This document shows, in pieces, positions 1,015-26,061 of a DNA stretch of 33,000 nt. Source of the stretch: a virus. The stretch is taken from IMG/VR virus record IMGVR_UViG_3300031957_003831, positions 1-33,000 of that record; one strand, 5' to 3'. Numbering within the stretch: position 1 is the stretch's first letter; each line of letters opens with the position of its first letter. The position numbers and the translations under genes were made by a program. The notes under the pieces are model-generated. The model ran no database searches. It saw nothing but the letters and a program-made list of their open reading frames with translations, and was not told the origin of the DNA.

Positions 1015-1169
1015 TCGTAGTCCTCAACTGCCTTTGATGGAATTCGGATCATGCGACCGGCCCGAAAACCGGGCAACTCTCCGCGTTTCACCATTTGGCG
1101 TATCGTCTCGGCAGAGCACTGCCAGCGCGTGGCCAGTTCCTGCGGGGTGTAGGGGCGCGCCGGGGGCAT
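885..1169 (-). CDS. Excisionase-like helix-turn-helix protein
   Basis: Small (94 aa) DNA-binding protein of the MerR/excisionase winged-helix type. Residues about 8-45 (YTPQELATRW ... GFRAGRMIRI) follow the usual pattern: choice of helix, recognition helix, then a GxRAGRxxRI wing. Proteins like this bend att DNA with the integrase and push recombination toward excision. The start at 1169 has AGGAG seven bases upstream. The last 43 codons overlap the start of the integrase gene in another frame; that tail (after about residue 52) is basic and low in complexity, so it is probably under weak constraint. Lambda xis and int also overlap. A role as a simple regulator of int is the alternative. Confidence 0.8.
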   Translation of the reverse strand: MPPARPYTPQELATRWQCSAETIRQMVKRGELPGFRAGRMIRIPSKAVEDYECQTSVLEDCAAGSASIGEIQRPASEPVISLRHAPERKRKQKA

Positions 1170-1396
1170 CAGCTATCTCCTGTCTGTGAGGGTATCGGTG
1201 GGAGGGAGCGCGACAGGCCATCCGGGCACCGGTTCAGGTCGAGGAGCTGCGACGGGGCTTCGGGATGATATCCTCGAATTGCGGAGGTCGACCGGGCGAG
1301 GTGAACAATGATGCCGAATCGGTTCCCCTTCCGAAACAATCTGCCTTGGATCATGCTGTCCGGGAGATGTGTCGCGCGCGTTCCAGTTGTTTCGAA

Positions 1397-1459
1397 TTTT
1401 GGAAAACTAGATTCCAAAAGATAGAATCTAATTTTACTCGAGATTGTTTGGTTTTGGAA
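1397..1459. repeat. Nested inverted repeats with TTTTGGAA arms
   Basis: TTTTGGAA (1397-1404) faces its complement TTCCAAAA (1412-1419) across 7 bp. A second inverted repeat overlaps it: TAGATTC (1408-1414) and GAATCTA (1424-1430). A third TTTTGGAA lies at 1452-1459. Their position upstream of the excisionase gene suggests binding sites for a regulator or for the recombination proteins; this is inference. Confidence 0.6.
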
Positions 1460-1634
1460 TCCGCGCACCTGAAGGGTGAGCGGACTCGACACGAAAAGCA
1501 AGGTCATGCACAACCCAAAGTGTCCATTGTGGACGTGTGTTTGAGTGAAAATGATTTGCCTGTAAGCACCTGTTGCGGATGTTTTTCCGTGTTGGTGCCC
1601 AATACCAATTGAAGAGTTTCTTTCTTTCTCAATC

Positions 1635-1678
1635 TGCCCTGGCACGGATTCAGCAACGTGCCGGGGCAATTTGTTTTT
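1635..1678 (+). terminator. Intrinsic terminator, plus strand
   Basis: A 12-bp stem (1635-1646 with 1657-1668, one G-T wobble) closes a 10-base loop and is followed by ATTTGTTTTT. This is a textbook rho-independent terminator, yet the only plus-strand candidate upstream is the weak frame ending at 1612. It therefore suggests an unrecognised plus-strand transcript. Confidence 0.75.
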
Positions 1679-1800
1679 GGGGGATGATTGCAGGCTTGTG
1701 CTGACTGCCGCTCTTTCGATTTGCTGAAATATAGCGCCATCTTGGTAGCTCATCTTACATGTTTCGGTCCGGCGTCGAATGGGGGTGCGAGGACCACGTA

Positions 1801-2019
1801 TCACCCGTCCCATCCGGCAGCCTTGGTTACTTCGGCGACGAGCCAGCCAATGCCGCAGGTGCTCGCCGCAATGAGCAAGAAGCCGAGCGCGAGCAGGACG
1901 ACGGCCTGTGGCCCCGTCGCCCTCTCCGGCTCCCTGAGCCAGATCCGCTGCGGCCGGACGTTCGTGACTGGGTAGGGGGCGCGGCCTTGGCTTTCTTCAA
2001 CGGGAGGATGATCACGCAT
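1801..2019 (-). CDS. Small single-pass membrane protein, unknown
   Basis: A 72-residue protein with a hydrophilic, proline- and arginine-rich N-terminal half and one transmembrane helix at about residues 40-65 (VVLLALGFLL ... IGWLVAEV), followed by a short tail. The start at 2019 is chosen because AAGGA lies about seven bases upstream; the frame stays open further upstream, but that sequence is Cys/Arg-rich and not protein-like. I do not recognise the family. Its position between integrase and immunity genes fits an accessory lysogenic gene, such as a superinfection-exclusion protein, but nothing in the sequence proves that. Confidence 0.55.
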   Translation of the reverse strand: MRDHPPVEESQGRAPYPVTNVRPQRIWLREPERATGPQAVVLLALGFLLIAASTCGIGWLVAEVTKAAGWDG

Positions 2020-2042
2020 CACCTGGTCCTTGTGGTCTGTTG

Positions 2043-2084
2043 CCCCCTGCCGCCTGCACCGGCATCGCAGATTACGGCAGGGGG
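2043..2084. repeat. Inverted repeat in the leader of the small membrane protein gene
   Basis: CCCCCTGCCG (2043-2052) and CGGCAGGGGG (2075-2084) form a perfect 10-bp stem with a 22-base loop. It lies 24 bases upstream of the minus-strand start at 2019. There is no T-run, so it is more likely a leader structure or protein site than a terminator. Confidence 0.5.
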
Positions 2085-2142
2085 ATGCGGGCACCTCGCC
2101 CTGCATGGGTTGATCGATCTGCCAATCGGTCAGGAATTCAGA

Positions 2143-2176
2143 CTGCCGGGCGTGACCTAATCGGGTCGCCCGGCAG
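2143..2176 (-). terminator. Hairpin downstream of the 2294-2629 gene
   Basis: CTGCCGGGCG (2143-2152) and CGCCCGGCAG (2167-2176) form a perfect 10-bp stem; the loop contains further complementarity (ACC/GGT). It lies 118 bp past the stop of the minus-strand gene ending at 2294. The T-run is poor, so the terminator call is tentative. Confidence 0.5.
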
Positions 2177-2293
2177 CACGACGAGCGCGGGTCCGTGAGT
2201 GGTGGTTTGCGCTGTCATTGGGAGTTCAGATGTCGGACCGGCGGATGGAGCGCTGCATGCGATCGGTGCCGGATAACATCTGGTGCGATGGTC

Positions 2294-2629
2294 CTAAGCG
2301 GCCTCGCCGCCACCGATGTGCAGTTTGCGAGCAACCGCTGCGCGGATCGCGGGAAGGGCGCGCTGGCGCCCCGCTTCCACCTCGGTCGCTGTCGGGGCGG
2401 GCGGTTCCGGATCCGGGTCGCCGTCGGTGGCGACGTGCACCAGCGTTGTTCGCCCGGAAATGCGGGCCTCGAGGTCATGCAGGCGGTTGCCTGCTTCGTG
2501 GGTAATCGGGTGTCCCTGCCGCTGCTTTGCGAGCAACCAGAAATCCTGGCGGGTGATGCGGTCAGCGGCGGCGGCCTCCGGGTCGGTCAGGAAAGCCGCC
2601 TCTTCGGGGAGAATGTACTTGTTCGGCAT
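2294..2629 (-). CDS. Hypothetical phage protein, 111 aa
   Basis: I do not recognise this protein. It is hydrophilic, begins MPNKYILPEEAAFL, and has a mainly helical N-terminal half (residues 10-60) followed by a proline-rich acidic linker and a basic Ala/Arg-rich C terminus. No membrane segment or enzyme motif is visible. The start at 2629 is preferred over an ATG four codons upstream because GGAGG sits five bases before it. The upstream promoter region holds two palindromes resembling the candidate repressor operators, so it may be a lysogeny or immunity gene controlled by the repressor. Downstream is the hairpin at 2143-2176. Confidence 0.6.
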   Translation of the reverse strand: MPNKYILPEEAAFLTDPEAAAADRITRQDFWLLAKQRQGHPITHEAGNRLHDLEARISGRTTLVHVATDGDPDPEPPAPTATEVEAGRQRALPAIRAAVARKLHIGGGEAA

Positions 2630-2656
2630 GAGTGCCTCCATCGGTTGATGGATGCT

Positions 2657-2707
2657 AAGTTGGGGGAAACTTTTCCCAACGTCAATACAAAATAGGAAAA
2701 CATTCCT
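2657..2707 (-). promoter_or_regulatory. Candidate promoter with two operator-like palindromes
   Basis: On the minus strand a TTGACG -35 (2685-2680) lies upstream of the 2629 start; the matching -10 is weak (CAACTT at 2662-2657). The spacer contains the perfect palindrome GGGAAAAGTTTCCC (2677-2664). A second one, GGAAAACATTCC (2695-2706), lies just upstream of the -35. Both resemble the sites in the repressor/Cro control region. Confidence 0.5.
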
Positions 2708-3076
2708 GTTTCATTTTTCGCAAATGTCTTGGCTAGGCACCTGGCGGCCTGCAAACCTATGCCGGGTGCTGTCCGGGAGGCGGTGGTTTCTGGTTGCGTT
2801 TTGCCCGCTCAGCAGTGCGACCTGGGTGATCGTGTGGAGGATCTTGTGTTTTCACACTTGAGGCTCGCGGCGGCTCAGGTCGGCGGCTCGTTCTACCGGC
2901 GTTACGTCCGCGTCTGGCGGTTCGAGATCAAGCGGATTGCTAAGGCTGTCTCTTGGCAGGTTTGTTTTTCGCAATTGCTTAATCCGGATCAGCCCGGACT
3001 GCGGATTGTAAGCTCGGAGGGTACAGCCCAGCAAGGGCGCCACACCGCGCGTCCAACTTGGCTTTTCGCAAGTGGC
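2708..3076. other. Intergenic stretch with repeats, no convincing gene
   Basis: This lies between the 3' end of the repressor gene and the promoter of the 2294-2629 gene. Open frames here lack ribosome-binding sites and recognisable products. It carries three of the four TTTTCGCAA repeats listed separately. Confidence 0.5.
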
Positions 3077-3093
3077 CTAAAGCTTTTTCGCAA
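2715..3093 (+). repeat. Four direct copies of TTTTCGCAA
   Basis: Identical 9-mers occur at 2715-2723, 2966-2974, 3063-3071 and 3085-3093, all in the same orientation. Three are preceded by at least one more T, and the flanking bases after CAA are similar (ATG, TTG, GTG, GTT). The last copy lies within the final codons of the repressor gene. They look like binding sites for one protein. Confidence 0.6.
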
Positions 3094-3730
3094 GTTCGGC
3101 TGGCCAGTGAAGCCGGATGCGCGCCGCCCACTTCAGGCGCCTGTTCCACATCGTGTTTGCGCCTGGATTGAGCGAAATAAGATGGAAGAGGCCGGGCTCG
3201 TCGCCGGACTTCAGTTGTCTGACCCAAGCCCTGTCCTCCTCGTCAAGGACCAAGCAGCGCTGGCCGATTGCATCGTCGGGGATTGGGGCGTTGAGCGTGG
3301 AGGCGTTGGGGCGCGGCGCGTAGAAGAGCAGGTCGCCCGCGCTGTACACGGGCTCCATGTCAGTTCCGTTGATTTCAATGGCAGCGACACTGGGAGAGGC
3401 GAGTTCGCTCGGGCATTTGACCATGGGGGCGTCGAGCTCGCTCCAAAGTTCGACTTCGGCGCCAGCTACCACACGCCCAGTTATCGCAGCCGTTGGACGT
3501 TCTGCGGTGGCCCTGGCTTCTCCGACAGCGATGATGTCCTCGACGGTGCGGTCAAGCTGCTTTGCAATATTGATCGCGCTGGAGATCCGGGGCGATGTTG
3601 CCGGCTTCTCGAACATCTTGCGTATGGCGGAATCACTCAGCCCAGCCTGCTTCGAGAGCGAAGCGGGCTTTAGTTGTTCCTGCCTGATAATTTCCATGAG
3701 TCCCCGAACGAACGGGTCAACGCTTGTCAT
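3077..3730 (-). CDS. Phage repressor, S24/LexA-like, with degenerate cleavage dyad
   Basis: Lysogeny repressor (217 aa). An N-terminal helix-turn-helix (about residues 7-60) is followed by a LexA/CI-type S24 domain (about 84-217), recognisable from the NGTDMEPVYSAGD segment and the VVAGAEVELW segment before it. The usual GDSMEP has become GTDMEP, putting Asp (D124) where the catalytic Ser normally sits, and the general-base Lys appears replaced by Arg (R171 in AWVRQL). RecA-stimulated self-cleavage is therefore doubtful; the domain may serve only for dimerisation. The start at 3730 has GGGAGA nine bases upstream. An in-frame ATG at 3817 would extend the protein through the control region and is unlikely. 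It is divergent from the Cro-like gene, as expected for an immunity switch. Confidence 0.85.
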   Translation of the reverse strand: MTSVDPFVRGLMEIIRQEQLKPASLSKQAGLSDSAIRKMFEKPATSPRISSAINIAKQLDRTVEDIIAVGEARATAERPTAAITGRVVAGAEVELWSELDAPMVKCPSELASPSVAAIEINGTDMEPVYSAGDLLFYAPRPNASTLNAPIPDDAIGQRCLVLDEEDRAWVRQLKSGDEPGLFHLISLNPGANTMWNRRLKWAARIRLHWPAELAKKL

Positions 3731-3815
3731 GGGTATGTTCTCCCATAGAGCAGTTCCACAAGCGACGGGAAAAAAATCCTTGAAGTGCTCGGAAAGTATT
3801 CCCATAACGGGGCGC
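3731..3815. promoter_or_regulatory. Repressor/Cro control region with three candidate operators
   Basis: Three 14-bp imperfect palindromes share GGGA at one end and CC at positions 12-13: 3744-3731 (minus, GGGAGAACATACCC), 3767-3780 (plus, GGGAAAAAAATCCT) and 3803-3790 (minus, GGGAATACTTTCCG). A plus-strand promoter reads TTGAAG (3780-3785), a 17-bp spacer, then CATAAC (3803-3808). The site at 3790-3803 falls in its spacer and the one at 3767-3780 ends at its -35, so binding would block the rightward early promoter. Confidence 0.55.
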
Positions 3816-4016
3816 ATGGAGCAGTTGATAAATGACGTCGAGGCCTATGCGGCCTCTGTTCGGCGCAAGCCGCAGGCGGTTCTGCGCGACGCGATCGGCG
3901 CCGGCTGGAGCGAGTGGGCATCGTGGAAAGCCGGAAGGTCGAGCCCTACGATGGCTCGCGTTGATCGGCTGCGGGAATACATGACTGACAATCCGCCGCG
4001 GGCGGAAGCAGCATGA
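3816..4016 (+). CDS. Cro-like small DNA-binding protein
   Basis: First gene of the early operon, 66 aa. Residues about 18-50 (AVLRDAIGAGWSEWASWKAG ...) read as a helix-turn-helix with the recognition helix around SEWASWKAG, and the protein is about the length of Cro. Divergence from the repressor and position directly behind the early promoter make a Cro-type antagonist the natural reading. There is no ribosome-binding site, and the predicted transcript start falls on or next to the ATG, so translation may be leaderless. The stop overlaps the next start as ATGA. Confidence 0.65.
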   Translation: MEQLINDVEAYAASVRRKPQAVLRDAIGAGWSEWASWKAGRSSPTMARVDRLREYMTDNPPRAEAA

Positions 4017-4342
4017 CCAATCACCTGAAGCTCGTCGTGTCGAATGAAGCATGCATTGAGGTTCCCACGAGCGATGCGCGGCTGTCCCGGTCCAAAGATC
4101 TGGACCGCTACCGAATGCAGCTCATGGCGGCCGATGTCTGGTCGGCGTGGCTAAAGATGGCGTTCCGGCGGCCCGAGGATGTTGCGGGGTTCTTCGGGGT
4201 GCGGAACAGTACCGCTTGGAACTGGTGGAACGCGACCAGCCGTCCCACTGCCGACAAGGTGATGATCGCTATTCTGGAATGCCCCGGCTTCCTTGATCAT
4301 CTCGCGACAATGGTCGCTGCTGATGTGCGACGGGTGGCCTGA
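4013..4342 (+). CDS. Early protein with a helix-turn-helix-like segment
   Basis: A 109-residue protein of unknown family. Residues about 52-85 (RPEDVAGFFGVRNSTAWNWW ...) resemble a helix-turn-helix in which the FFGV/STAWNWW part would be turn and recognition helix, so it may regulate early transcription or start replication. The N-terminal 30 residues look disordered. It is coupled to the Cro-like gene by an ATGA overlap, and its own stop overlaps a possible short gene at 4342. Confidence 0.65.
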   Translation: MTNHLKLVVSNEACIEVPTSDARLSRSKDLDRYRMQLMAADVWSAWLKMAFRRPEDVAGFFGVRNSTAWNWWNATSRPTADKVMIAILECPGFLDHLATMVAADVRRVA

Positions 4343-4521
4343 TGGCCCCTCGCTATTCCGCAACTAATTCAAGTGTCCGGGTCTGCCGGACCTTCCAGGC
4401 GGAGGAACAACTCCTTCCCCACCTGGCGCGCGGGGCACTGCCCCACCGTGGCCTCTTCTCCTCTTCTCAGGCCGTGCCGCCTCGCGCGTCTCTTCTCATT
4501 CTGCCGGGGAGCCGGCCATGA
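4342..4521 (+). CDS. Possible 59-residue coupled small protein
   Basis: An ORF of 59 codons exactly bridges two genes. Its ATG shares a base with the upstream TGA (TGATG at 4340-4344) and its TGA overlaps the next ATG (ATGA at 4518-4521). That double coupling is the main support. The product is basic and rich in Ser, Pro and Leu, with no recognisable domain and an unremarkable composition, so it could be a chance frame through a leader. Confidence 0.35.
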   Translation: MAPRYSATNSSVRVCRTFQAEEQLLPHLARGALPHRGLFSSSQAVPPRASLLILPGSRP

Positions 4522-4784
4522 GCGTACAGCCTGCCAACGTCCGTCGGAGTGTCACGGTGCCGTTCGGGCACTTGGTGCTGCGGCTGGTCGAGCTCGACTG
4601 CGGAACGCGCGGTTGGTCTCTTCGGATTGACGGCTTCGGCTCCGACGCGCTGACCGTGGTCAACGGATCGCTCGACGGTGGCGACTTGGCAGCGCTGACA
4701 GCGGATTTCGAAACTGGCCTCTCGGCGCTTCGTCAGTTCGGCGCGCGCACTGGCAAAACAGGGAAGGGCGCTGCATGTCCGTGA
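4518..4784 (+). CDS. Hypothetical early phage protein, 88 aa
   Basis: Family not recognised. The sequence suggests a small alpha/beta fold: alternating hydrophobic strands (VTVPFGHLVLRLVEL, WSLRIDGFG) followed by a helix (DLAALTADFETGLSALRQF). No catalytic motif or membrane segment is seen. GGGGAG lies about eight bases before the ATG. It overlaps the next gene by 10 bp and so is likely co-translated with the replication protein that follows. Confidence 0.65.
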   Translation: MSVQPANVRRSVTVPFGHLVLRLVELDCGTRGWSLRIDGFGSDALTVVNGSLDGGDLAALTADFETGLSALRQFGARTGKTGKGAACP

Positions 4785-5404
4785 ACCTGAGGATGATCAG
4801 CAGCGTCGAGGATCTGCCCGAGTACCCACTGCCAGCGGGGACGCGGCTCAAGTCCCACAGCTACTTCTTCTTCCACTACGACGACTGGCTCAACAGCGAC
4901 TTCTTCACCCGCACGGTGCAGCGTGGCGATTGGGCAGTGCAGGCAGTGGCGCATGTGCTCTGGTGCAAGTCGCGCTACCAGGATCCGGTGGGCACGCTGC
5001 CGACGGATCCGGCGCTGCTGGCCGGGCTCGCGCAGATGTCGGTCGATGCCTGGGAAGGCTATGCCTGCCGCGACATCAACCCGCTTTACGGCTGGTACCG
5101 CTGCCGGATCCCCGGCTCGGGCGAGGTGCGGCTCATGCATGACAAGGTCACTGCGGTCGTGCTCGAGGCGACGGAGTCGCGCCACCGGAGCGAGGACCGG
5201 GCGCTGGCCGACAAGGAGCGCCAGGCAATCAAGCGCCTGCGCGAGACGGTGGCCAAGCTCGCGGATGAGCGGCTGTCTGAGAACCTGCGCTACATCGTGA
5301 CCCTGCACCGCTGGCTCGACGAGACCTACCCGACGGGCAATCGCACCCTCACACGCATCATCGACGGCATGGACGCGCTCGGCACCACCGCCTGGCGCGC
5401 CTGA
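4775..5404 (+). CDS. DUF1376-like phage replication protein
   Basis: The 209-residue protein begins with a segment (about 27-125) resembling DUF1376/YdaU-type proteins of phage replication modules: FFFHYDDWLNSDF, then a helix ending VLWCKSRYQDPVGTLPTDPALLAGLA, then a W-Y-R-C-R strand and a helix around RLMHDKVTAVVLEA. A charged helical segment follows (about 135-175) and a conserved-looking C-terminal helix pair. In this family the N-terminal domain is a winged-helix-like module associated with replication initiation or helicase loading. AGGGAAGGG precedes the start. A repeat cluster that could be an origin follows directly. The family match is from memory of the pattern, so moderate. Confidence 0.55.
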   Translation: MSVNLRMISSVEDLPEYPLPAGTRLKSHSYFFFHYDDWLNSDFFTRTVQRGDWAVQAVAHVLWCKSRYQDPVGTLPTDPALLAGLAQMSVDAWEGYACRDINPLYGWYRCRIPGSGEVRLMHDKVTAVVLEATESRHRSEDRALADKERQAIKRLRETVAKLADERLSENLRYIVTLHRWLDETYPTGNRTLTRIIDGMDALGTTAWRA

Positions 5405-5416
5405 CCGGCTTCGCAA

Positions 5417-5484
5417 CTCTGTCCAATTCTGTTCGTCGGACAGAACCGGTCGGAAAGCGGACAGAACCGCCGACATTCTGTCGG
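5417..5484. repeat. Cluster of ACAGA repeats, candidate origin or operator
   Basis: CGGACAGAACCG occurs twice exactly, at 5437-5448 and 5458-5469, 21 bp (two helical turns) apart. Three inverted partial copies flank it: TCTGTCC (5418-5424), ATTCTGTTCG (5427-5435 region) and ATTCTGTCGG (5475-5484). Five ACAGA cores in about 70 bp next to a replication-type gene suggest iterons for initiator binding. Confidence 0.5.
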
Positions 5485-5509
5485 CTGCAAGAGAGGAAAG
5501 GAGAAGGAA

Positions 5510-5614
5510 ATGACAAAGAAAAAGACAGGAGAGACGCGTCGCGCTCCGATCCGATGGCGCGGGCTGTGGATAAATGCCGGCCATGAAACTGCTGAGATGA
5601 GGGGCGGGCGATGA
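5510..5614 (+). CDS. Possible 34-residue basic protein
   Basis: A 34-codon frame starts MTKKKTGETRRAP and is strongly basic at its N terminus. It has a strong purine-rich ribosome-binding site (AGGAGAAGG directly upstream of the ATG), and its stop overlaps the next start as ATGA. Both signals are good for such a short frame, so it is either a real micro-protein or a leader that couples translation into the following gene. No function can be assigned. Confidence 0.5.
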   Translation: MTKKKTGETRRAPIRWRGLWINAGHETAEMRGGR

Positions 5615-6183
5615 CCGAGGCACAGAACACGAGGGTCGAGACCAACCGGGACCGGGTGCGCCGGGTGCTGATCCAGCCGCTGACCGAGTACGGGTTCCGC
5701 AAGCCGGGCAATGTGACCGAGCAGAAGCACGCGAAGTTCCTGAACGACCTGGCGGACGGGCTCGCCTACCTGAGCGAGCCGCAGCTCGAGCAGCTGCGCG
5801 ACTTCCTGCGGTTCTGCGGCGAAGGCAAGGACAAGCGCGCCTGGCCGCGGATGGCGGCGATCACGCCGCGGGCCGAGGCGGTGGCGCCGCGCCCGATCGA
5901 GGAGCACCCGACAATCTGTTCCTGGTTCGGCTCGGCGCGGGGCCCGAAGGCGCTGGAGGAGGGGACGCTGGTCGCAGAGTTCCAGTTCCTCTCGCAGTTC
6001 AAGAGGCCGCCGCTGAACGACGGCGACTGGCGGCGGGTGCGCGAGAAGTCGGCGCAGCACGACCACGACAGACGGGTGCGCTCGGACCGGCAACGGCGCG
6101 GCGTGGCCAGCGACGACGACAGGAAGTGGCTCGCCTGGCACGCCCAGCTCGAGGCTCGGGCGATGGCGCTTCTGAAGCAATAA
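5611..6183 (+). CDS. Hypothetical early phage protein, 190 aa
   Basis: Family not recognised. Residues 1-90 look helical and acidic/basic mixed (ETNRDRVRRVLIQPL, then LNDLADGLAYLSEPQLEQLRDFLRF). A proline-rich centre (PRMAAITPRAEAVAPRPIEEHP) leads to a basic C terminus rich in Arg, Asp and His. The N-terminal part plus a linker and a basic tail would suit a replication or recombination accessory protein, but this is only position-based inference. It is coupled to the preceding 34-codon frame by ATGA. Confidence 0.6.
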   Translation: MTEAQNTRVETNRDRVRRVLIQPLTEYGFRKPGNVTEQKHAKFLNDLADGLAYLSEPQLEQLRDFLRFCGEGKDKRAWPRMAAITPRAEAVAPRPIEEHPTICSWFGSARGPKALEEGTLVAEFQFLSQFKRPPLNDGDWRRVREKSAQHDHDRRVRSDRQRRGVASDDDRKWLAWHAQLEARAMALLKQ

Positions 6184-6202
6184 CGAAAGAACGGGTGAGC
6201 AG

Positions 6203-6853
6203 ATGGTGAAGACCTACAGCAAGGGCGCGCGGCGACGGGCGAAGAAGGCGAACGGGGCAGGCGGGCTCGACCTGCCGGGCCTCGCGCCGGTCACGCGGCG
6301 CCAGCCGAACGGGCAGCGGCGGCGGACGGTCGAGGACCGCGACGCCTCGGTCCAGGCGCTGAAGGTCCGCTGCCGGCTGGCGGGTCTGCCAGAGACGGCG
6401 GCGGGACTGCGCGAGGCGCGGGCGCCGTGGCTCGGGTGTCGGGCAGGGCGGGCCATGGCGGCGGCGGTCACGGATCACGAGGAACGCGCCCAGCTCTGGG
6501 ATGCGATCCAGCACCTGCGGCGGGTGCAGGTGGCACATGACCGTGCCATCGGAGCGCCGACACGGCACGCACGCTGCCTGCGGCTTCTGGTGCCGGTCGA
6601 GGCGATGTCGGCCGACGCGGAGACGCCGCCCGTCGACGAGCGCAGCGACGAGGAGCGGCAGCGCGATGCGACGCGGGCGCTGATGCGGGTCGAGGGCTGG
6701 CTGGGCTATACCGACAAGCGCGCGCGCAGCGAGGTTCTGCGCGTCGTGGTCGATGATGGCGAGGTCCGGGACGTAGCTGGCCTGCTGTCGGCGCTGCTGT
6801 GTCTCTCGGACGGTCTGAAGGGCCGCAGGATGGTCTGGCGCGGAAGGGCTTGA
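6203..6853 (+). CDS. Hypothetical early phage protein, 216 aa
   Basis: Family not recognised. A very basic N terminus (about 1-50, many Arg/Lys) could bind nucleic acid. Then come a helical region with many Arg and Ala (about 50-115), an acidic patch (PPVDERSDEERQRD, about 146-160), and a C-terminal region (about 165-210) with regular hydrophobic spacing. As the last gene before the early terminator it occupies the place where late regulators or crossover-junction nucleases often lie, but I see no matching motif. Confidence 0.6.
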   Translation: MVKTYSKGARRRAKKANGAGGLDLPGLAPVTRRQPNGQRRRTVEDRDASVQALKVRCRLAGLPETAAGLREARAPWLGCRAGRAMAAAVTDHEERAQLWDAIQHLRRVQVAHDRAIGAPTRHARCLRLLVPVEAMSADAETPPVDERSDEERQRDATRALMRVEGWLGYTDKRARSEVLRVVVDDGEVRDVAGLLSALLCLSDGLKGRRMVWRGRA

Positions 6854-6891
6854 CGGAGTCCGCGAAAAGCGCAAGGTTGGCATCATCGAGA

Positions 6892-6938
6892 GAGACCGCG
6901 CCCGGAGGAGAAATGCCGCCGGGCGCGGTCTCGTTTCA
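6892..6938 (+). terminator. Early-operon terminator hairpin (left copy)
   Basis: GAGACCGCGCCCGG (6892-6905) pairs perfectly with 6919-6932 around a 13-base loop and is followed by GTTT. It ends the rightward early operon. A near copy of the hairpin and its GTTTCAG tail lies at 9597-9640, on the other side of the cargo genes. Confidence 0.75.
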
Positions 6939-7127
6939 GGGCTTGGGATTTTCGGGCAAGGGCGGGCCGGCGTCAGCCCAGGCGGACATATATCCAAAGA
7001 AAAGACGACTGAGTGGCTCTGGTGCGGGTCCATGCGGACCGCCGCTCTGGCCGAAAATGATCGCTCCCGAACCGTGAGGTCCGGGAGCAACAAGGCGTTG
7101 TGCGCCATCAGGTGAGAGTGAGTTGGC

Positions 7128-8681
7128 TCACTGCGGCGGCGGTGCCGCGTCCATGATCTGGCGCGACATGTCCTCGACCGAGGTCGAGAAACTGGCGATC
7201 CGCGGCGGGAACTCTTCGAAGGACTGGATGAAGGTGTTCACCAGCCCGAGCGCCGGGCCGATCGCCCAGGAGTGGTTCTCCTGCCATTCGTCGAAGCCGC
7301 GCGCTTCGTGGAAGCGTTCGAACGGGTCGAGATCGAGACGGGTGATCAGCGGCGAGGTCATCTCGTACTGGTGACCGTTGAACCAGCGGTCCTGGCTGGT
7401 GAAGAGGAACTTCCATTCGCCGTAGCGCAGACCATGGAAGGTCGTCTCGGTGAAGAAGAAGAACTCTTTCCGGTTGGAGGGGCCGCTCTGCGTCAGGATC
7501 GGCGTCTGGTCGTAGCCATCGAGATGGACCTTGTAGGTCTTGCCGCCGATCTCGGCGCCCTCCAGCAGGCTTTCCTTCAGATCCGGCTCGCCGAGCTGGC
7601 TCATGATGGTGGGGATCCAGTCCTCCATGGTCATCAGCTCGCCGGTCGTCGTCCCTTCGGGGATGAGGCCCGGCCACTTGACCATCATCGGCACCTTGAA
7701 GCCGCCCTCGTAGCCGCCGACACCCTTCTCGCCGCGGAACGGCTGGTTGCCGCCGTCGGGCCAGGAGTTCGACGCGGCGCCGTTGTCGGTCGAGAACATC
7801 ACCATGGTGCTGTCGGCGACGCCCAGCTCGTCGAGCAGGTTGAGCAGTTCGCCGACGTCGTCATCCAGCTCGACCATCCCGTCTGCGTAGACGTTGCCGA
7901 GGCCGGTGATGCCGTCATAGTGCTCGTTGAGGTTGGTGCGATAGTGCATCCGCGTGGTGTTGTGCCAGACGAAGAAGGGCTCGTCGGCCTCGACCGCCTC
8001 GGTGATGAAGCGCTTGCTCTGTTCGAGCACGTCCTGATCGAGGTTGCGCTGCACCTCCTGGCCGAAGGGGCCGAGATCCTCGATCTCCTGCCCGCCGTCC
8101 TCGGTCGCGAAGCTGTGGATCATGCCGCGCTGCGCAAGTCCGGCGTCTTCGAAGGCCTGGGCAGGATAGTCCGCCTGTTCGATGTATTCGCCGGCGTTGA
8201 GGTGGTAGAGGATGCCGAAGAACTCGTCGAAGCCGTGGTTGGTCGGCAGATGCTCGTCCCGGTCGCCAAGGTGGTTCTTGCCGAACTGGCCGGTGCGATA
8301 GCCCTGCGCCTTCAGCATTTCCGCCAGCGTCGGATCTTCGGTGGAGAGGCCCTGCGGCGCCCCCGGCAGCCCGACGGTGGAGAGACCCACCCGCAGCGGA
8401 TACTGCCCGGTGATGAAGGCCGCACGGCCCGCCGTGCAGGAGGCCTGCGCGTAGTGATCCATGAACAGCATGCCGTCATTGGCGATGCGGTCGATGTTCG
8501 GCGTTTCACCGGCCATCATGCCGCGGTGATAGGCCGAGATGTTCCACATCCCGACGTCATCGCCCCAGATCACGAGGATATTGGGGTTCGCCGCTTCGTC
8601 CTGCGCCTGTACCGCCGCGCCGACGCAAATCGCCAGGGCAGTGACCGCCGCGGTGCACGCGTGTCTTTTTCGGAGAAACAT
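7128..8681 (-). CDS. Secreted arylsulfatase, formylglycine-dependent
   Basis: Type I sulfatase (517 aa) that hydrolyses sulfate esters, probably on a polysaccharide or small aryl/alkyl sulfate, in the periplasm or outside the cell. A signal peptide is clear (MFLRKRH, a hydrophobic stretch to about residue 22, then AVQA before Q27). The CxAxR maturation motif is C82-T-A-G-R86; C82 would become formylglycine, needing a host maturase because none is in the window. Metal and active-site residues are visible: D41-D42 (WGDDVG), K135/H137 (GKNHLGD), D299-N300 (STDNG) and K319. Length is normal for the family. The start at 8681 is chosen for the signal peptide; the frame is open to 8783. It runs against the phage operons as cargo. 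The substrate cannot be read from sequence. Confidence 0.92.
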   Translation of the reverse strand: MFLRKRHACTAAVTALAICVGAAVQAQDEAANPNILVIWGDDVGMWNISAYHRGMMAGETPNIDRIANDGMLFMDHYAQASCTAGRAAFITGQYPLRVGLSTVGLPGAPQGLSTEDPTLAEMLKAQGYRTGQFGKNHLGDRDEHLPTNHGFDEFFGILYHLNAGEYIEQADYPAQAFEDAGLAQRGMIHSFATEDGGQEIEDLGPFGQEVQRNLDQDVLEQSKRFITEAVEADEPFFVWHNTTRMHYRTNLNEHYDGITGLGNVYADGMVELDDDVGELLNLLDELGVADSTMVMFSTDNGAASNSWPDGGNQPFRGEKGVGGYEGGFKVPMMVKWPGLIPEGTTTGELMTMEDWIPTIMSQLGEPDLKESLLEGAEIGGKTYKVHLDGYDQTPILTQSGPSNRKEFFFFTETTFHGLRYGEWKFLFTSQDRWFNGHQYEMTSPLITRLDLDPFERFHEARGFDEWQENHSWAIGPALGLVNTFIQSFEEFPPRIASFSTSVEDMSRQIMDAAPPPQ

Positions 8682-8947
8682 GATCTTCACCTCAGCCTTG
8701 TCTGGCGAGAAACCGTGACCTCTGCAGGTCGGCCTCCTCCCGCCTGAAAATCCCATTAAAGCTAGCAGATTAAACCTGAGCATGTAGAGGATGTCTCTCG
8801 CCGCAACTTTGAGTCAAGTCAACTTTTTAAGCCTCAGGTTGAGTGCGCTCGTCGGGAATGCAACAGCCGGTCGCTTGGGGGCGATCCCTCCCGCCGGGCG
8901 ACAGGCTGCGCGCCGCGGGTTCGTGTGACTGCATCATGGCGCCTCGT

Positions 8948-9415
8948 TCAGGCAGCGAGGCGCTCTTCCAGGTCGAGCCGCATGGTCGCCATGCCCTGGC
9001 GGCGGGACAATTCCTCGTAGCCTGCAGAAAGGTAGGCGTTCAGGGCCGGAGCGTTGTCGACCTCGACCTTCAGGGTCAGGCTCGACGCGCCAAGATCGCG
9101 GGCGGCTTGCTCCACGTGTTCCGTCACCTCTGCGGCAGCGCCGCCGCGGGCCTCCTCGACCAGATAGACATAGGTCAGGTGCCGCACTTCAGGTCCGACC
9201 CCGACGCGGAGGGCGAAAAATCCGACCTCTCGGCCTGCGGGATCCTGAAGGTAGAAGGAGACGTCGTCCTGATCTCCGAGCCACTTGCGATGCCACTCCA
9301 TCTCGTCGAAGGGCACTTTCGCATTGGGGTTGATCAGGGGGATCTCCTCGGACGGCAGCATCGCTGCAAAGGTCGAGAGATCGTGGTCGCGGTTGCGACG
9401 GAGGGTAAGAGCCAT
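8948..9415 (-). CDS. GNAT-family N-acetyltransferase
   Basis: Acyltransferase of the GNAT fold (155 aa), expected to move an acetyl group from acetyl-CoA to an amine. The core is recognisable: strand 4 (LTYVYLVEEA), the pyrophosphate-binding turn R90-GGAAA, the helix after it (VTEHVEQAARDLGA), strand 5 (LTLKVEVD) and the N-ALNAYLSAGYEE helix-turn typical of motif B (about 117-135). Good ribosome-binding site (GGAAGGA) just upstream of 9415. It shares orientation with the sulfatase, which starts 266 bp downstream, so the two are probably transcribed separately or loosely coupled. The substrate is unknown; antibiotic or self-toxin protection, small-molecule modification and protein acetylation are all possible. 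Confidence 0.85.
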   Translation of the reverse strand: MALTLRRNRDHDLSTFAAMLPSEEIPLINPNAKVPFDEMEWHRKWLGDQDDVSFYLQDPAGREVGFFALRVGVGPEVRHLTYVYLVEEARGGAAAEVTEHVEQAARDLGASSLTLKVEVDNAPALNAYLSAGYEELSRRQGMATMRLDLEERLAA

Positions 9416-9596
9416 GGGTCCTTCCTTCGGCTGGGCCCCGCGCTGGTGCGCCGGGATGCATCATGAAACCCCGGCGCCTGACACAGAGGCCCGGCCCGAG
9501 TCAACCGGACGGCGGATTCCGCGCTTTCAGAGGAAGTTCGGATTGGGAGCGGTCAGCCGCGACCGAACAAGGCTCGGCTGGTGATCTGAAGGCAGA

Positions 9597-9640
9597 ACGC
9601 GCCCGGAGGGAAAGTCCTGCCGGGCGCGTCTTGTTTCAGA
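9597..9640. terminator. Hairpin, right copy, at the edge of the cargo block
   Basis: ACGCGCCCGG (9597-9606) pairs with CCGGGCGCGT (9620-9629), followed by CTTGTTTCAG. It resembles the hairpin at 6892-6938 base by base, including part of the loop and the GTTTCAG tail. It lies just past the stop of the minus-strand gene at 9636 and may terminate it as well. Confidence 0.65.
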
Positions 9641-9830
9641 AACTCAGGATGCTGAGGTTGGTCTCGCTGCCCGGGACCGTAAAGGTGCCGTCGGTGTTGT
9701 ACTCGACGGTCTGGCCGTTCCCGAGCACGTAGCGTTGATTGGTGCCGTTGGTCTGCCTGAACACGGTGAGCATCTCACCGTCGTCAGAGCTGCATTCGAG
9801 GATCTGAGTGTTGGTCCATTCGTCGGACAT
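9636..9830 (-). CDS. Small polar protein, 64 aa, unknown
   Basis: Short, Thr/Asn/Gly-rich protein with the look of a small beta-sheet fold: repeated strand-turn units such as EMLTVFRQTNGTNQRYVLGNG and TVEYNTDGTFTVPGS (each part shown is shorter in the strand itself). There is no signal peptide or membrane segment. A perfect GGAGG five bases before the ATG at 9830 supports it. It belongs by strand and position to the cargo block. One of its two Cys-free beta units resembles a ligand-binding or structural repeat, but no family is recognised. Confidence 0.6.
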   Translation of the reverse strand: MSDEWTNTQILECSSDDGEMLTVFRQTNGTNQRYVLGNGQTVEYNTDGTFTVPGSETNLSILSF

Positions 9831-10016
9831 GTGAGCCTCCAGTGGGTCTGCTTCGCTGGCGGGTTGACTGCATTGTCAGGCTGGCGGCAATAGGCAAAAT
9901 GCTTGCGCGGCAGGTATTTGGTCACTCTTTCGGGATCGTGCAAGCGGTCGCGGGCGATCTCCCGGCGGTTGCGCCAGATCCCGCTCACGCTGCGTCAGCT
10001 CAAGGGGAGCACCACG

Positions 10017-10400
10017 ATGCGTAAGCTCTGCACCGCCCCTGGCTGCGAGGAAGTTTCGCTGCCGGGCAGGCCGCGCTGCGCGGTTCATCAGGCGGAGCAG
10101 GATGGCAGGCGGGCGGCGCAGAAGGCGGCGGCGCAGGCCACGCCGCACGCGGCGGCTGCGCGGGCGCTCTATGCCGATCCGCGCTGGAAGGTGGCGGCGC
10201 GGCGGTTCCTCGACCGGCATCCGCTCTGCGTCGATTGCGGCGAGCTGGGCGTGGTCGAGCCCGCGACGGATGTCGACCACGTGGTGCCGCACAAGGGCGA
10301 CCGAGGCCTGTTCTGGGACCGGTCGAACTGGCAGGCGCTCTGCCACCGGTGCCACAGCCGGAAGACGGCGCGCGAGGTCTGGCACGGGGACCGGGGGTAG
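10017..10400 (+). CDS. HNH endonuclease next to terminase
   Basis: A 127-residue HNH nuclease of the HK97 gp74 kind, found beside terminase genes, where such enzymes assist cleavage of packaged DNA at cos sites. Zinc-binding pairs C71-x2-C74 and C109-x2-C112 frame the HNH core: D87-H88 (DVDHVVPHKGD), N104 and H113 (NWQALCHRCHSRKT). An additional CxxxxC-like N terminus (C5, C10, C21) with H24 may form a second metal site. The start at 10017 has AGGGGAG eight bases upstream; the frame is open further up but without a good start. First gene of the late operon. Confidence 0.9.
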   Translation: MRKLCTAPGCEEVSLPGRPRCAVHQAEQDGRRAAQKAAAQATPHAAAARALYADPRWKVAARRFLDRHPLCVDCGELGVVEPATDVDHVVPHKGDRGLFWDRSNWQALCHRCHSRKTAREVWHGDRG

Positions 10401-10505
10401 GTCAAAAATCCCGGCCGGACGGCGCAAACCGACGCCCCAACCTTTCTTTTCGCACCGGCGGAATTGAGCAAAAAAGCCCACCTTGAGCAGGACAGGAGAT
10501 TGGTC

Positions 10506-10943
10506 ATGAAGGGACGCAAGCCGACCCTCGACAATGTCGTGCCCATGCGCGGCGATGCCCCGAAGCCGGTGCCCGAGCCGCACGACCTGATGTCCGACGG
10601 CGCCAAGAAGGTCTGGCAGGAGCTGGCGCCGGAGCTGGTGCGCATGGACCGGCTGAAGCCGCATTACGAGCACATGTTCGTGGCCTACTGCGAGTCGGCC
10701 TCGGACGTGATCGAGCTCACCAGCAACATCGTGCTCGAGGGGCGCACCTACACGGTCAAGACACGCAACGGGGTCCAGCAGAAGAAGACCGCGAACTGGC
10801 AGGCGCGGCAGGACGCGCTGGCCAACATGCGCCAGCTGGGCGCGCTCTTCGGGCTGTCGCCGGTCGACGACGCGCGGCTGGCGACCGGGGGACAGGGGGA
10901 TCTCTTCGAGGAGCTCCTGCGCGGGATCCGTGGAGGCAATTGA
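10506..10943 (+). CDS. terS: Phage terminase small subunit, P27 family
   Basis: DNA-recognition subunit of the packaging motor (145 aa). The N terminus MKGRKPTLDNVVPMRGDAP and the following helical block with MSDGAKKVWQELAPELVRM ... YCESASDVIEL and a C-terminal GALFGLSPVDDARL are typical of the P27 small-terminase family. The start at 10506 is preferred over one 14 codons upstream because AGGAG lies seven bases before it. It overlaps the large subunit by 14 bp. P27-type subunits usually go with cos packaging, which agrees with the adjacent HNH gene. Confidence 0.88.
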   Translation: MKGRKPTLDNVVPMRGDAPKPVPEPHDLMSDGAKKVWQELAPELVRMDRLKPHYEHMFVAYCESASDVIELTSNIVLEGRTYTVKTRNGVQQKKTANWQARQDALANMRQLGALFGLSPVDDARLATGGQGDLFEELLRGIRGGN

Positions 10944-12597
10944 TCATCCCGTCAGCCGCTATGCGCTCGACGTGATCGAGGGCGAGGTCGTGGCGGGGCC
11001 GCTGGTGCGGATGGCCTGCGAGCGGCACCTGCTGGACCTCGAGACCGGGGCGGATCGCGGCCTGGTCTTCGATCCGGACGCCGCCGACATGGTGATCCGC
11101 TTTGCCAAGGTCCTGCGCCACACGACGGGGCCGATGGCGGGCGCCGAGCTGGCGCTGCAGCCCTGGCAGGTGTTCCGGCACGGGTCCGTGTTTGGCTGGA
11201 AGCATGCCGAGACCGGGCTGCGGCGGTTCCGCTCGACCTACCACCAGGTGGCCAAGAAGAACGGCAAGACCACCGACACCGCGGTGCCGATGCTCTTCAC
11301 CCAGCTCTTCGACGGGGAGGGCGCACCTCAGGGCTATTGCGCCGCGACGACGCGGGACCAGGCGGGGCTGCTCTTCAACGAGATCAAGCGGATGATCCGC
11401 GGCTCGCCGGCACTGAGCTCGCTGCTGGATGTGTTCAAGACGCAGATCCAGTCGCCGCGCACCAACGGATACATCGCCGCGCTCAGCCGGGACGGCAACA
11501 GCGCCGACGGCATCAACCCGCACTTCGCCGCCCGCGACGAGGTGCACCGCTGGACCGACAGGGAACTCGCCGACGTGGTCACCAACTCGATGATCGCCCG
11601 CGCCCAGCCGATCGACTGGGCGATCACCACCGCCGGCGCCGACCGCGCCAGCCTCTGCGGCGAGATCCGCACCTATGCCGAGCGGGTGCTGCGCGGCGAT
11701 GTGCGCGACGACGCCTTCTTCGGCTTCGTGGCCGAGCCGCCCGAGGATGCCGACCCCTCGGACCCGCTGACCTGGGCGATGGCCAACCCCAACCTCGGGG
11801 TGGCCTTCACGGAAGGAGACTTCCGGCGCATCCACGACGAGGCGCAGGCGATCCGGGGCAAGATGCCGAACTTCCGGCGGCTGCACCTCAACCTCTGGAC
11901 CGAGGGCGCGCAGAGCTGGATCGGACGCGACATCTGGGACCGGGGGCTGGCGACCGCGCCCTTCGATCCGGCAAGCCTCTACGGGCGCAAGGCCTGGGTG
12001 GGGATCGACCTCAGCCGTACCACCGACCTCACGTCGATCGTGGTGGCGGTGCCGGTCGAGGGGGTCATCTACCTGCTGGCCTACGCCTTCATCGCCGAGG
12101 GGCCCAAGGGCTTCGTGGCCCGGGCGCAGTCGGAGAACCGCGACTACGTGGCCTGGCGCGACGATGGCTGGCTCGAAGTGCACCGGGGCGGGGTGATCGA
12201 CGAGGACCAGGTGATCGAGCGCATGAAGTGGCTGCGCGAGCGGTTCGATCTGCAGGAGGTGGCCTATGACCGCTGGGGCATGAAGCACGTGGCCTCCGAG
12301 CTCGACAAGCTGCGCTTCCCGCTCCTCGAGTTCGGGCAGGGCTACGCCAGCATGTCGCCCGCCACCAAGCGCTTCGAGCGGGCGGTGATCCAGAACCGGC
12401 TGCGCCACGGCGGCAACCCGCTGCTCGCCTGGGCGGTGGGCAACGTGGTGCTCGACCAGGACGCGGCCGAGAACGTGAAGCCCAACAAGAAGAAGGCCAC
12501 GGGCCGAATCGACCCGGCAGTGGCCGCGATCATGGCGGTGGGCAGGGCCGAGGTGGGCGAAGAGAAGCGCAAGGCGCGGGACGTGGTGGTGGTATGA
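10930..12597 (+). CDS. terL: Phage terminase large subunit
   Basis: ATPase and nuclease of the DNA packaging motor (555 aa, usual length). The N-terminal ATPase has a Walker A variant typical of this branch (QVAKKNGKT, residues 107-114) and a Walker B ending in D203-E204 (FAARDEVH). The C-terminal RNase H-like nuclease shows three acidic positions: D360 (VGIDLSRTTDL), D447 (VAYDRWG) and D528 (GRIDPAVA). It starts with GTG inside the end of terS and its stop overlaps the portal start (ATGA), so the packaging genes are translationally coupled. Confidence 0.95.
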   Translation: MEAIDHPVSRYALDVIEGEVVAGPLVRMACERHLLDLETGADRGLVFDPDAADMVIRFAKVLRHTTGPMAGAELALQPWQVFRHGSVFGWKHAETGLRRFRSTYHQVAKKNGKTTDTAVPMLFTQLFDGEGAPQGYCAATTRDQAGLLFNEIKRMIRGSPALSSLLDVFKTQIQSPRTNGYIAALSRDGNSADGINPHFAARDEVHRWTDRELADVVTNSMIARAQPIDWAITTAGADRASLCGEIRTYAERVLRGDVRDDAFFGFVAEPPEDADPSDPLTWAMANPNLGVAFTEGDFRRIHDEAQAIRGKMPNFRRLHLNLWTEGAQSWIGRDIWDRGLATAPFDPASLYGRKAWVGIDLSRTTDLTSIVVAVPVEGVIYLLAYAFIAEGPKGFVARAQSENRDYVAWRDDGWLEVHRGGVIDEDQVIERMKWLRERFDLQEVAYDRWGMKHVASELDKLRFPLLEFGQGYASMSPATKRFERAVIQNRLRHGGNPLLAWAVGNVVLDQDAAENVKPNKKKATGRIDPAVAAIMAVGRAEVGEEKRKARDVVVV

Positions 12598-13859
12598 AGC
12601 TCTTCGGGTTGGACATTCGCCGCGCGGGCAGCACAGCTCCGCGCATCGAGCCGCCGGTGACGGCGCAGGCGGCCGCGAGCGACGAGGGCCTGCTGGCGGT
12701 GGGCTGGGGATCGCTCGGGGCGCCGGGTGCGGTGCGGGGCCTGCCGCGGGTGACGCCCGAGACCGCGGCGCATCACGCCACGGTCTTTGCCTGCTGCAAC
12801 AACATCGCGGGCGATCTCGCCAAGGTGCCGCTGAAGCTCTGGCAGCGGCAGGGCGACGGGCAGGACGTGCGGGTGCGCGAGCATGCCGCCGGCGAACTGT
12901 TGAACGGCGAGGCCGCCCCCGGCGTACCCGCCAAGCTCGTGCGCTTCGCCGCGGTCTACGCCTATGCGCTGCGCGGGAACGGCCACATCTACGGGCCTCG
13001 CGATGGCGGCGGCGAGCTGATGCGGCTCGACATCGTGCGCCAGGGCAGCGTCTCGATGCTGCGCGACGGGCTCGAGCGCTTCTACCAGTTCGAGGACGGG
13101 GCAGGCGTGCAGCGCCGGGTGCCGGCGCGGGCGATGGTGCACCTGCGCTACATGGCCGAGGACGGCTGGACCGGCCGCAGCCCGATCCAGGTGGCGGCCG
13201 AGAGCGTCGGCATCGCGCTCGCGGGCCAGCGGGCGGCGGCGCGCAACGCCGCGGGCGGCACCACCAAGGGCGTGATCAAGCTCGGCGACAATTACGAGGG
13301 CGAGGAACAGCGGGTGCGCAACGCGCGCCGCATCAAGGATGCGATGCAGGACCCGGGCGGCGACGGCTGGATCGTCACCAACCCCGACGAGGACGTGAAG
13401 GCGCTCGACATCTCGGCCGCCGACCAGGAGCTCCTGTCGAGCCGCAAGTTCGACCGCGAGATGCTGGCGGGGATCTACCGGATGCCGCCGAGCAAGCTGC
13501 AGATGCTGGAATACGGTGTGAAGGCCAACGGCGAGCAGCAGGCCATCGACTACCTGACCGACTGCCTGCTGCACTGGTCGGCGCTGGTGGAGGCACAGCT
13601 CGACGTGGCGCTGCTGACCCGGGCCGAGCGCGCGGCGGGGCTGTTCCTGCGCCACGACTTCGGCGCGCTGCTGCAGCCGACGGTCAAGGAACAATACGAG
13701 GCGCTGAACCGTGCCGTGGGCGGGCCGTTCATGCGGCCCAACGAGGCGCGCGCCAAGATCGGCGCGCCGCCGGTGGCCGAGGGCGGCACGCTCAACCCCG
13801 CGCCCAACATGACCCGCGCCGAAGCGCCGGGCCGCGATCCCGAAGGAGACGACGCATGA
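12594..13859 (+). CDS. Phage portal protein, HK97 family
   Basis: Forms the dodecameric ring at the capsid vertex through which DNA enters and to which the tail attaches (421 aa). HK97-type signs include the early VTPETAAHHATVFACCNNIA segment, the SPIQVAAESVGIAL helix, the clip region around residue 225-265, and REMLAGIYRMPPSKLQM, which matches the conserved A-x-x-F-x-VPP-x-x-L pattern. The C-terminal tail is Pro/Ala-rich. Overlaps both neighbours by ATGA junctions. Confidence 0.93.
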   Translation: MKLFGLDIRRAGSTAPRIEPPVTAQAAASDEGLLAVGWGSLGAPGAVRGLPRVTPETAAHHATVFACCNNIAGDLAKVPLKLWQRQGDGQDVRVREHAAGELLNGEAAPGVPAKLVRFAAVYAYALRGNGHIYGPRDGGGELMRLDIVRQGSVSMLRDGLERFYQFEDGAGVQRRVPARAMVHLRYMAEDGWTGRSPIQVAAESVGIALAGQRAAARNAAGGTTKGVIKLGDNYEGEEQRVRNARRIKDAMQDPGGDGWIVTNPDEDVKALDISAADQELLSSRKFDREMLAGIYRMPPSKLQMLEYGVKANGEQQAIDYLTDCLLHWSALVEAQLDVALLTRAERAAGLFLRHDFGALLQPTVKEQYEALNRAVGGPFMRPNEARAKIGAPPVAEGGTLNPAPNMTRAEAPGRDPEGDDA

Positions 13860-14782
13860 GCCGGACCATTGCCAGCTTCTTTGCCGGGGCGCCGCTGGCG
13901 CTCTCGCGCGCCCACGGCGAGGCGCTCCTGCAAATGCCCGTCCCCGCGCCGGGTGCGGAGGTTGGGGCGCGGGCGCTTTCGGTGGGGGGCATGTCGCTCG
14001 CGCTGGAGCCGGGCGAACGCTACGCCATCCACCGCAACATCGCCATCGTGCCGATCTCGGGGCTTCTGACGCCCAACGCCTTCCTGCTCGAGCGCTGGCT
14101 CGGCTGGAGCACCTACCACGGGCTCGAGGCCACCTTCGCCGAGCTCGCCGCCAACGAGGACGTGGCCGCAATCGTGGCGCTCTGCGACTCACCCGGCGGC
14201 TACGTGCTGGGCATCGCGGGCGCGGCGGCCGCGGTGGCGGCTGCGGCGGCCGTGAAGCCGGTGCATGCGCTGGTGCATCCGCTCGCCGCCTCGGCCTGCT
14301 ACCACATCGCGAGCCAGGCGACGGACATCATCCTCACGCCCGGCAGCGTGGTGGGCTCCATCGGCTGCATGCAGGTGAGCTCGGCACCGGTGCAGCCGGG
14401 TATGTCGGGCGATCAGCTGTTCATTCACAGCTCGTCGCACGCACGCGCCAAGCGCCCGGATCCCTCGACCGAGGAAGGCCGGCGCGAGTCGGTGCGGGTG
14501 CTTGACGCCATGGAGGCGGACTTCCACGCCGCTGTCGCTGCGGGTCGGGGCATCGACCTTGCCGAACTCCCGGCGCGGCTCTCGTCGACCGACGATCCTG
14601 CCGATGGCGGCGCGATCTTCTGGGGCGCGGAGGCGCAAGCCCGCGGGCTCGTCGACCGGCTCGAGGATGCGCCCACGTTCTGGGCCCGGCTCGGGGCGGC
14701 CTACGCGCCGCGTCCCGCTCGCACCGCCGGGCGCGCTGCCCGGGCCCAGGCGCAGGCCGCGCGGGCGCTCGCCGGGCTCTGA
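13856..14782 (+). CDS. S49-family head maturation protease
   Basis: A serine protease related to signal peptide peptidase SppA (308 aa), used by many phages to remove the scaffold part of capsid subunits. The S49 core is visible: DSPGGYVLGI (111-120), the catalytic-serine helix LAASACYHIASQA with S146, and PGSVVGSIGC (162-171). The likely general-base Lys lies in HARAKRPDP (K199 region). The C-terminal third is Ala/Arg-rich and may be cleaved or disordered. It sits between portal and capsid genes, the standard place for this function. Confidence 0.9.
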   Translation: MSRTIASFFAGAPLALSRAHGEALLQMPVPAPGAEVGARALSVGGMSLALEPGERYAIHRNIAIVPISGLLTPNAFLLERWLGWSTYHGLEATFAELAANEDVAAIVALCDSPGGYVLGIAGAAAAVAAAAAVKPVHALVHPLAASACYHIASQATDIILTPGSVVGSIGCMQVSSAPVQPGMSGDQLFIHSSSHARAKRPDPSTEEGRRESVRVLDAMEADFHAAVAAGRGIDLAELPARLSSTDDPADGGAIFWGAEAQARGLVDRLEDAPTFWARLGAAYAPRPARTAGRAARAQAQAARALAGL

Positions 14783-14893
14783 TCTTCCCCACCACCGGGC
14801 GCGCCCACGCGCGCCTTGTCTTCACCCTGCCGGTGCGCGGCTGGGTCTTCCTGCTGCGCCCGAGGCGCGGCGCCCATCACGAGGAGCATCACC

Positions 14894-17594: not shown

Positions 17595-17595
17595 G

Positions 17596-17958
17596 ATGGC
17601 GGGCGGGCGGCTCAACGACCGCATCACCATCCAGCGCAAGGTGCCGGGCAACACGCCCGGCGGCAACACCGTGGTGGGCTGGGCCGACCTCGAGCTGACC
17701 GCCGGCACGCCGCTCACGCTCTGGGCGGACATGAATGAGGATCCGGGCACCGAGGCGCTGGTGGCGGGCCGCAACGAGGCCACGCGCCGGGCGACGGTGC
17801 GGCTGCGGGTCAGCCCCGCCGCGCGCGAGATCACCGCGGCCGACCGGCTCGTCGCGCGCGGTGCCGTCTGGAAGATCCGCAGCGCCCCGGCGCAGGCGCC
17901 CGAGCGCGCGGACCTGCTGGTGCTGCTCTGCGAGGAATGGATCAGGCCGCCAAACTGA
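17596..17958 (+). CDS. Head closure / head-tail joining protein
   Basis: A 120-residue beta-rich protein of the SPP1 gp16/phage head-tail adaptor type. The N terminus AGGRLNDRITIQRKV is characteristic, as are W-A-D-M and the later RRATVRLRVSPAAREITAADRL and VWKIRSAP strands (each a separate strand). It caps the connector and seals packaged DNA before the tail joins. It begins one base after the previous stop. Confidence 0.8.
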   Translation: MAGGRLNDRITIQRKVPGNTPGGNTVVGWADLELTAGTPLTLWADMNEDPGTEALVAGRNEATRRATVRLRVSPAAREITAADRLVARGAVWKIRSAPAQAPERADLLVLLCEEWIRPPN

Positions 17959-17968
17959 GGAGAGTACC

Positions 17969-18734: not shown

Positions 18735-18791
18735 CGCCCTTCGGCAAGGCGACCCGGGCGGCAGCCCATCTTCCGTTCACAGGAGGCCATC

Positions 18792-26048: not shown

Positions 26049-26061
26049 GAGAGCATGTGAC

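Follow-up and report, generated by a model that had tools for sequence, protein, structure and literature searches.

Gene content of the provirus

The DNA analyzed here, referred to as the window, comprises an IMG/VR provirus record in full (33,000 bases), from the stop codon of the integrase gene to a stop codon at position 33000. Its features are compiled in Table 1. A first-pass annotation of the same DNA had assigned a sulfatase gene to a prophage. The prophage was recovered in our analysis, as the window encodes an integrase, an S24 repressor, TerS and TerL, an HK97 portal and capsid, a tape measure, tail fibres and an endolysin. By its gene content, the record is identified as a 33-kb HK97-type temperate siphophage provirus, probably of a Paracoccaceae host. 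The sulfatase gene is flanked by the integrase and repressor genes on one side and by the HNH and terminase genes on the other. Since phage genes border it on both sides, it resides inside the temperate siphophage and not at its edge. The location of integrase/repressor and terminase/capsid on opposite sides also excluded an artefact of the provirus boundary.

Table 1. Features of the 33,000-base window discussed in the text.
Feature	Position	Strand	Remarks
Tyrosine integrase (1-1014) and HTH_17 excisionase-like protein (885-1169)	1-1169	-	
S24-type repressor	3077-3817	-	
Conserved early gene, 190 aa	5611-6183	+	Yardstick for slot length
Last early gene ahead of the cargo slot, 216 aa	6203-6853	+	81% identical in L087
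Left terminator hairpin copy	6893-6936	+	Closes the early operon; -39.1 kcal/mol, z -5.4
Secreted S1-type (type I) sulfatase (predicted), 517 aa + stop	7128-8681	-	Pfam, catalytic residues, AF2 model
GNAT acetyltransferase	8948-9415	-	Second cargo gene
Right terminator hairpin copy	9594-9636	+	-32.1 kcal/mol, z -4.7; 83% identical to the left copy over 35 nt
Small 64-aa ORF	9636-9830	-	Recurs in the equivalent slot of related phages: 97% identical in L086/L232, 67% in L233 and L234
HNH-type protein	10017-10400	+	Homology with empty-slot relatives restarts at its ATG
Terminase small and large subunits (TerS, TerL)	10464-12597	+	
HK97 portal, head maturation protease, major capsid protein	12594-16219	+	
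Head-tail connectors, major tail protein, tape measure, tail fibre genes	17022-28440	+	
Endolysin, chitinase-like	29990-30850	+	

The sulfatase gene, the GNAT gene and the 64-aa ORF are all oriented opposite to the lytic genes. The GC content of the cargo is 64%, that of the early and late genes 67% and 71%, respectively. Upstream of the sulfatase gene no canonical sigma-70 promoter was found; the sole consensus match lies on the plus strand (9873-9900). The right-hand terminal part of the record (31600-33000) contains an AAA ATPase gene with a GC content of about 48%, compared to about 70% in the late genes. In PADLOC its product matched AriA (E 2e-22), AbiLi and PtuA in part, and the gene is a second accessory gene, possibly with a role in defence.

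The sulfatase and its predicted properties

The first-pass annotation had reported a complete sulfatase gene at this locus without stating that the ORF resides on the minus strand. The completeness of the gene was affirmed. Its ATG at position 8681 is directly preceded by AGGTGAAG, while an alternative upstream ATG at position 8783 is possible and would give a protein of 551 aa. The 517-aa protein matched the Pfam profile Sulfatase (PF00884) with 167.6 bits (E 5e-49) over profile positions 1-300 of 301. The active-site residues named beforehand (D41, D42, C82-T-A-G-R86, D299, N300 and K319) were correct, and together with K135, H137 and H246 the catalytic set is entirely present. Its metal ligands and catalytic Lys and His residues (D41, D42, D299, N300, K135, H137, H246, K319) were invariant across 34 aligned sequences. 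The stretch C82-T-A-G-R86 agrees with the formylglycine motif C/S-X-P/A-X-R; the Cys was found in 33 of the 34 aligned homologues and TAGR in each of them. A homologue of Vibrio owensii (L079, 10001-11479) has the formylglycine Cys replaced by Ser and would require a Ser-type maturase. The signal peptide that had also been proposed was recognized as well: judged by eye, MFLRKRHACTAAVTALAICVGAAVQA-QDEA at the N-terminus looks like a typical Sec signal peptide.

An AF2 model of the protein (pLDDT 81, pTM 0.86) was compared with known structures by Foldseek, which gave a probability of 1.00 to 7aj0, 1auk and 4fdi, indicating a sulfatase (alkaline-phosphatase-like) fold. The top structural match was PsFucS1 (7aj0, TM 0.76), followed by matches including human arylsulfatase A and GALNS; the 28% identity to PsFucS1 conveys fold and chemistry, not substrate or subfamily. 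From sequence and fold the protein is predicted to be a type I (S1, formylglycine-dependent) sulfatase of the PF00884 family. A search of the phage genome for a formylglycine-generating enzyme (FGE) disclosed none. Thus, maturation of the sulfatase would have to rely on an FGE of the host. FGE homologues are present in genomes that carry the nearest sulfatase homologues (G001 and G002).

A cargo slot in related phages

A related TerL is encoded by 73 viral contigs, the closest of which are 93-98% identical. In these phages, the length of the slot, taken as the distance between the 190-aa early gene and the HNH gene, was determined at 52 loci, which are partly non-independent since some of them share one genome. 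The slot spans 0.75-1.0 kb at 32 of the loci, giving space for one early gene, and 1.1-3.9 kb at the remaining 20, including the window (3.8 kb). An empty slot was delimited precisely in phage L087, whose nucleotide homology covers the last early gene, extends up to window position 6940 and resumes at the start codon of the HNH gene (10017), with 11 bp in between.

Loaded slots contain mutually unrelated genes, which differ between the phages. The sibling phage L145 (TerL 98% identical over the part present) harbors at 5103-6924 an AAA ATPase gene and a partner gene matching PADLOC PDC-M07A/PDC-M07B, a phage-defence candidate. Two plus-strand ORFs unrelated to the sulfatase cassette make up the slot of L089 (6931-8394), and small minus-strand genes fill that of L093, L101, L105, L127 and L146. 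The slot of L105 (7059-8779) comprises three tandem copies of a minus-strand gene of 161-174 aa (MIGPVTATSVM...). Because relatives with terminases as similar as 93-98% show an empty or differently filled slot, we regard the sulfatase gene as cargo. As judged from these alignments, it is a moron in the sense of an extra gene missing from close relatives at the equivalent place.

Terminator hairpins bracketing the cargo

A rule-based scan did not report any terminator in the window. Folding revealed two hairpins of very high stability, which have moderately U-rich tails and bracket the sulfatase and GNAT genes. Their GC-rich pattern CGCGCCCGG-N13-CCGGGCGCG is found at two places of the window (6897-6927 and 9598-9628) and not at all in shuffled sequences. 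Using a relaxed pattern, a single copy was detected 39-76 nt before the HNH gene in 17 related loci, and a pair of hairpins around cargo only in the window and in L089, where the two copies are nearly identical to each other. Relatives with an empty slot have the hairpin once, at a distance of about 50 nt ahead of HNH. L098 and L127/L129 contain one copy upstream of the cargo, and a second recognisable hairpin is missing in most of the loaded relatives. Scanning of viral contigs with the hairpin pattern yielded at least 29 stretches, a lower bound since the known copy of L087 was missed. The predicted terminator after the early operon is a landmark of the slot.

Given the two copies of a strong terminator hairpin on either side of the cargo, the latter was probably inserted or exchanged by recombination at this hairpin. 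The duplication and a role of the hairpin in recombination rest on two phages. A more far-reaching assumption would be that the hairpin is the recombination site of the whole lineage, that cassettes enter and leave between its copies so that a loaded phage keeps one copy at each end, and that the cassettes of the window (sulfatase and GNAT) and of L089 represent two states of one exchange system moving host metabolic genes among Paracoccaceae. On the sequence data, we consider this system improbable.

Misassembly or a wrong provirus boundary might also have joined the sulfatase gene to the phage. The record derives from provirus prediction and was cut at gene ends, and our searches of viral contigs with the sulfatase and TerL did not yield a second record joining this sulfatase to this phage. 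However, the break in homology coincides exactly with the hairpin and the gene ends, and the right flank (hairpin edge, 64-aa ORF and HNH gene) recurs at 97% identity in L086, which originates from an independent metagenome. An artefact of this kind is therefore very hard to believe.

Origin of the sulfatase and GNAT genes

The nearest sulfatases (87-91% identical) are encoded on the chromosomes of Pseudooceanicola HF7, Mangrovicoccus HB161399 and Albibacillus kandeliae. In a maximum-likelihood tree, the sulfatase of the window nested within Paracoccaceae and grouped with these homologues at a support of 100/100, by which the phage gene is traced to Paracoccaceae hosts. Among 394 genomes of the family, a homologue with 84-87% nucleotide identity occurs in only five. 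Chromosomal homologues sharing the flanks of the phage gene, which the first-pass annotation had named as counter-evidence, were not encountered among those examined; the Paracoccaceae homologues lie beside different, mostly non-phage genes that vary from genome to genome. In an Albibacillus sequence (L008) two near-identical sulfatase copies exist (5338-6873 and 13643-15101), one of them a few kb from a putative prophage end.

GNAT homologues with 75-80% identity are present in chromosomes of other genomes of the host family, and a pattern scan of viral contigs revealed no close GNAT relatives. The flanks of the GNAT homologues in the host genomes (about 1.4 kb) did not contain any sulfatase match. 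Therefore, the two genes were probably captured as separate events. The transfer of a host operon as a unit found no support in these flanks.

Sulfatases had been called rare phage cargo, and our searches agree with this statement. The best full-length matches among 50,697 phage records were only 22-29% identical, and five relatives with 45-48% identity emerged when 2.9 million viral contigs were scanned by pattern. Three of the five are located amid clear phage genes, namely in L003 (portal, TerL, DnaB), L005 (portal, capsid) and L006 (integrase, P2-type portal), so that the sulfatase of the window is not unique; cases on predicted prophages have also been published (PMC11077953). The three proteins are 45-47% identical to the window protein and were placed in other clades of the tree, which indicates that phages captured sulfatases more than once. 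By these comparisons, predicted secreted sulfatases are rare but recurrent phage cargo. The L006 gene (45% identity) is situated between the integrase and portal genes of a provirus (367-12334). L003 is a 63-kb metagenomic phage whose sulfatase (9665-11500) possesses a Tat-like N-terminus, and the provirus L004 carries nearly the same sulfatase.

Given a slot that accepts varied cargo, the sulfatase gene might be a neutral passenger, in which case chromosomal host DNA would recently have become trapped in the phage and would benefit neither phage nor lysogen. The gene seems to be mobile anyway, as its close homologues are sporadic, one of them adjoins an IS3-like transposase gene and a more distant copy (G222) is decayed and partial. 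On the other hand, the frame and the active site of the phage gene are intact, and dN/dS values of 0.07-0.11 were obtained against the three nearest homologues, a figure that includes evolution before the capture. Purifying selection acts among these sulfatase homologues. Moreover, the sulfatases of other clades in L003, L005 and L006 argue against mere chance trapping, and GNAT and sulfatase genes are not adjacent in the host genomes examined, which means that they do not represent one chromosomal fragment. We thus think it unlikely that the gene is a neutral passenger.

Proposed role of the phage sulfatase

At a probability of roughly 0.75, the gene is best explained as an accessory ("moron") gene of a Paracoccaceae temperate siphophage, which was captured from a host, is borne in the slot and expressed in the lysogen, and whose product is exported, matured by the host FGE and hydrolyses sulfate esters outside the cytoplasm. 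According to this explanation, a host sulfatase gene and a host GNAT gene would have been captured, separately or together, and seated in the cargo slot, which separates the early operon from the packaging operon. Since the cargo is oriented against the lytic genes, like repressor and integrase, it is most likely expressed in the lysogen. The sulfatase would then be exported through its signal peptide and C82 matured by the FGE of the host. Hydrolysis of sulfate esters might release sulfate for the lysogen or trim sulfated glycans.

A non-nutritional role was also considered, in which the enzyme desulfates or otherwise alters surface glycans of the lysogen and thereby prevents superinfection or changes attachment. 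Morons that modify the cell surface are frequent in temperate phages, the enzyme is predicted to be exported, and the slot of the sibling L145 holds a phage-defence candidate. Sulfated surface glycans of the host are unsupported, though, and the best structural matches, fucoidan-active PsFucS1 and arylsulfatase A, fit many substrates, which leaves a surface function quite unlikely.

Most claims on metabolic genes of phages concern contigs on which the gene may sit outside the phage. Here, the gene lies inside the phage, a relative with an empty slot is at hand, the insertion point has been mapped, and both a source clade and signs of functional constraint were found, which makes the proposal of a captured, lysogen-expressed sulfatase directly testable. 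If the enzyme is active, an exported sulfatase can be supplied to the host by a temperate phage; enzymes of this class are important for the use of sulfated polysaccharides. The duplicated hairpin provides a concrete hypothesis for the entry of cargo into such phages.

Comparison with known systems

Prophage morons and lysogenic-conversion cargo, including defence hotspots, are known in temperate phages. The cassette of the window resembles them in that reverse-oriented accessory genes occupy a single variable locus and are missing from close relatives. It differs in that the cargo is a predicted secreted sulfatase, around which the terminator hairpin of the slot is duplicated.

Among characterized enzymes, PsFucS1 (PDB 7AJ0), a fucoidan-active SulfAtlas S1_13 sulfatase of Pseudoalteromonas (PMC8484680), was the top match both by sequence (189 bits) and by fold, with a two-domain fold and catalytic residues in common. 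The PsFucS1 gene is chromosomal, however, and the identity low (only 28%). The chromosomal arylsulfatases of Paracoccaceae share 87-91% identity and one clade with the phage protein, but their genes reside in varied, mostly non-phage contexts.

Regarding phages, predicted prophage regions of Kyphosus gut metagenomes were reported to contain 13 sulfatases (PMC11077953), FGE genes were reported in Pseudoalteromonas phages (PMC10232697), and a change of sulfatase activity upon lysogeny of Vibrio harveyi by VHML was tabulated (PMC6359870). In the literature we found no detailed description of a phage-encoded sulfatase. L003, L005, L006 and the Kyphosus cases, the latter likened by description only, have in common with the window a sulfatase on phage DNA, whereas L003, L005 and L006 are different phages, with other positions and clades of the sulfatase. 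Hence, the prophage moron is known as a general kind, while a predicted secreted sulfatase is unusual as cargo; its insertion point in the phage is well resolved.
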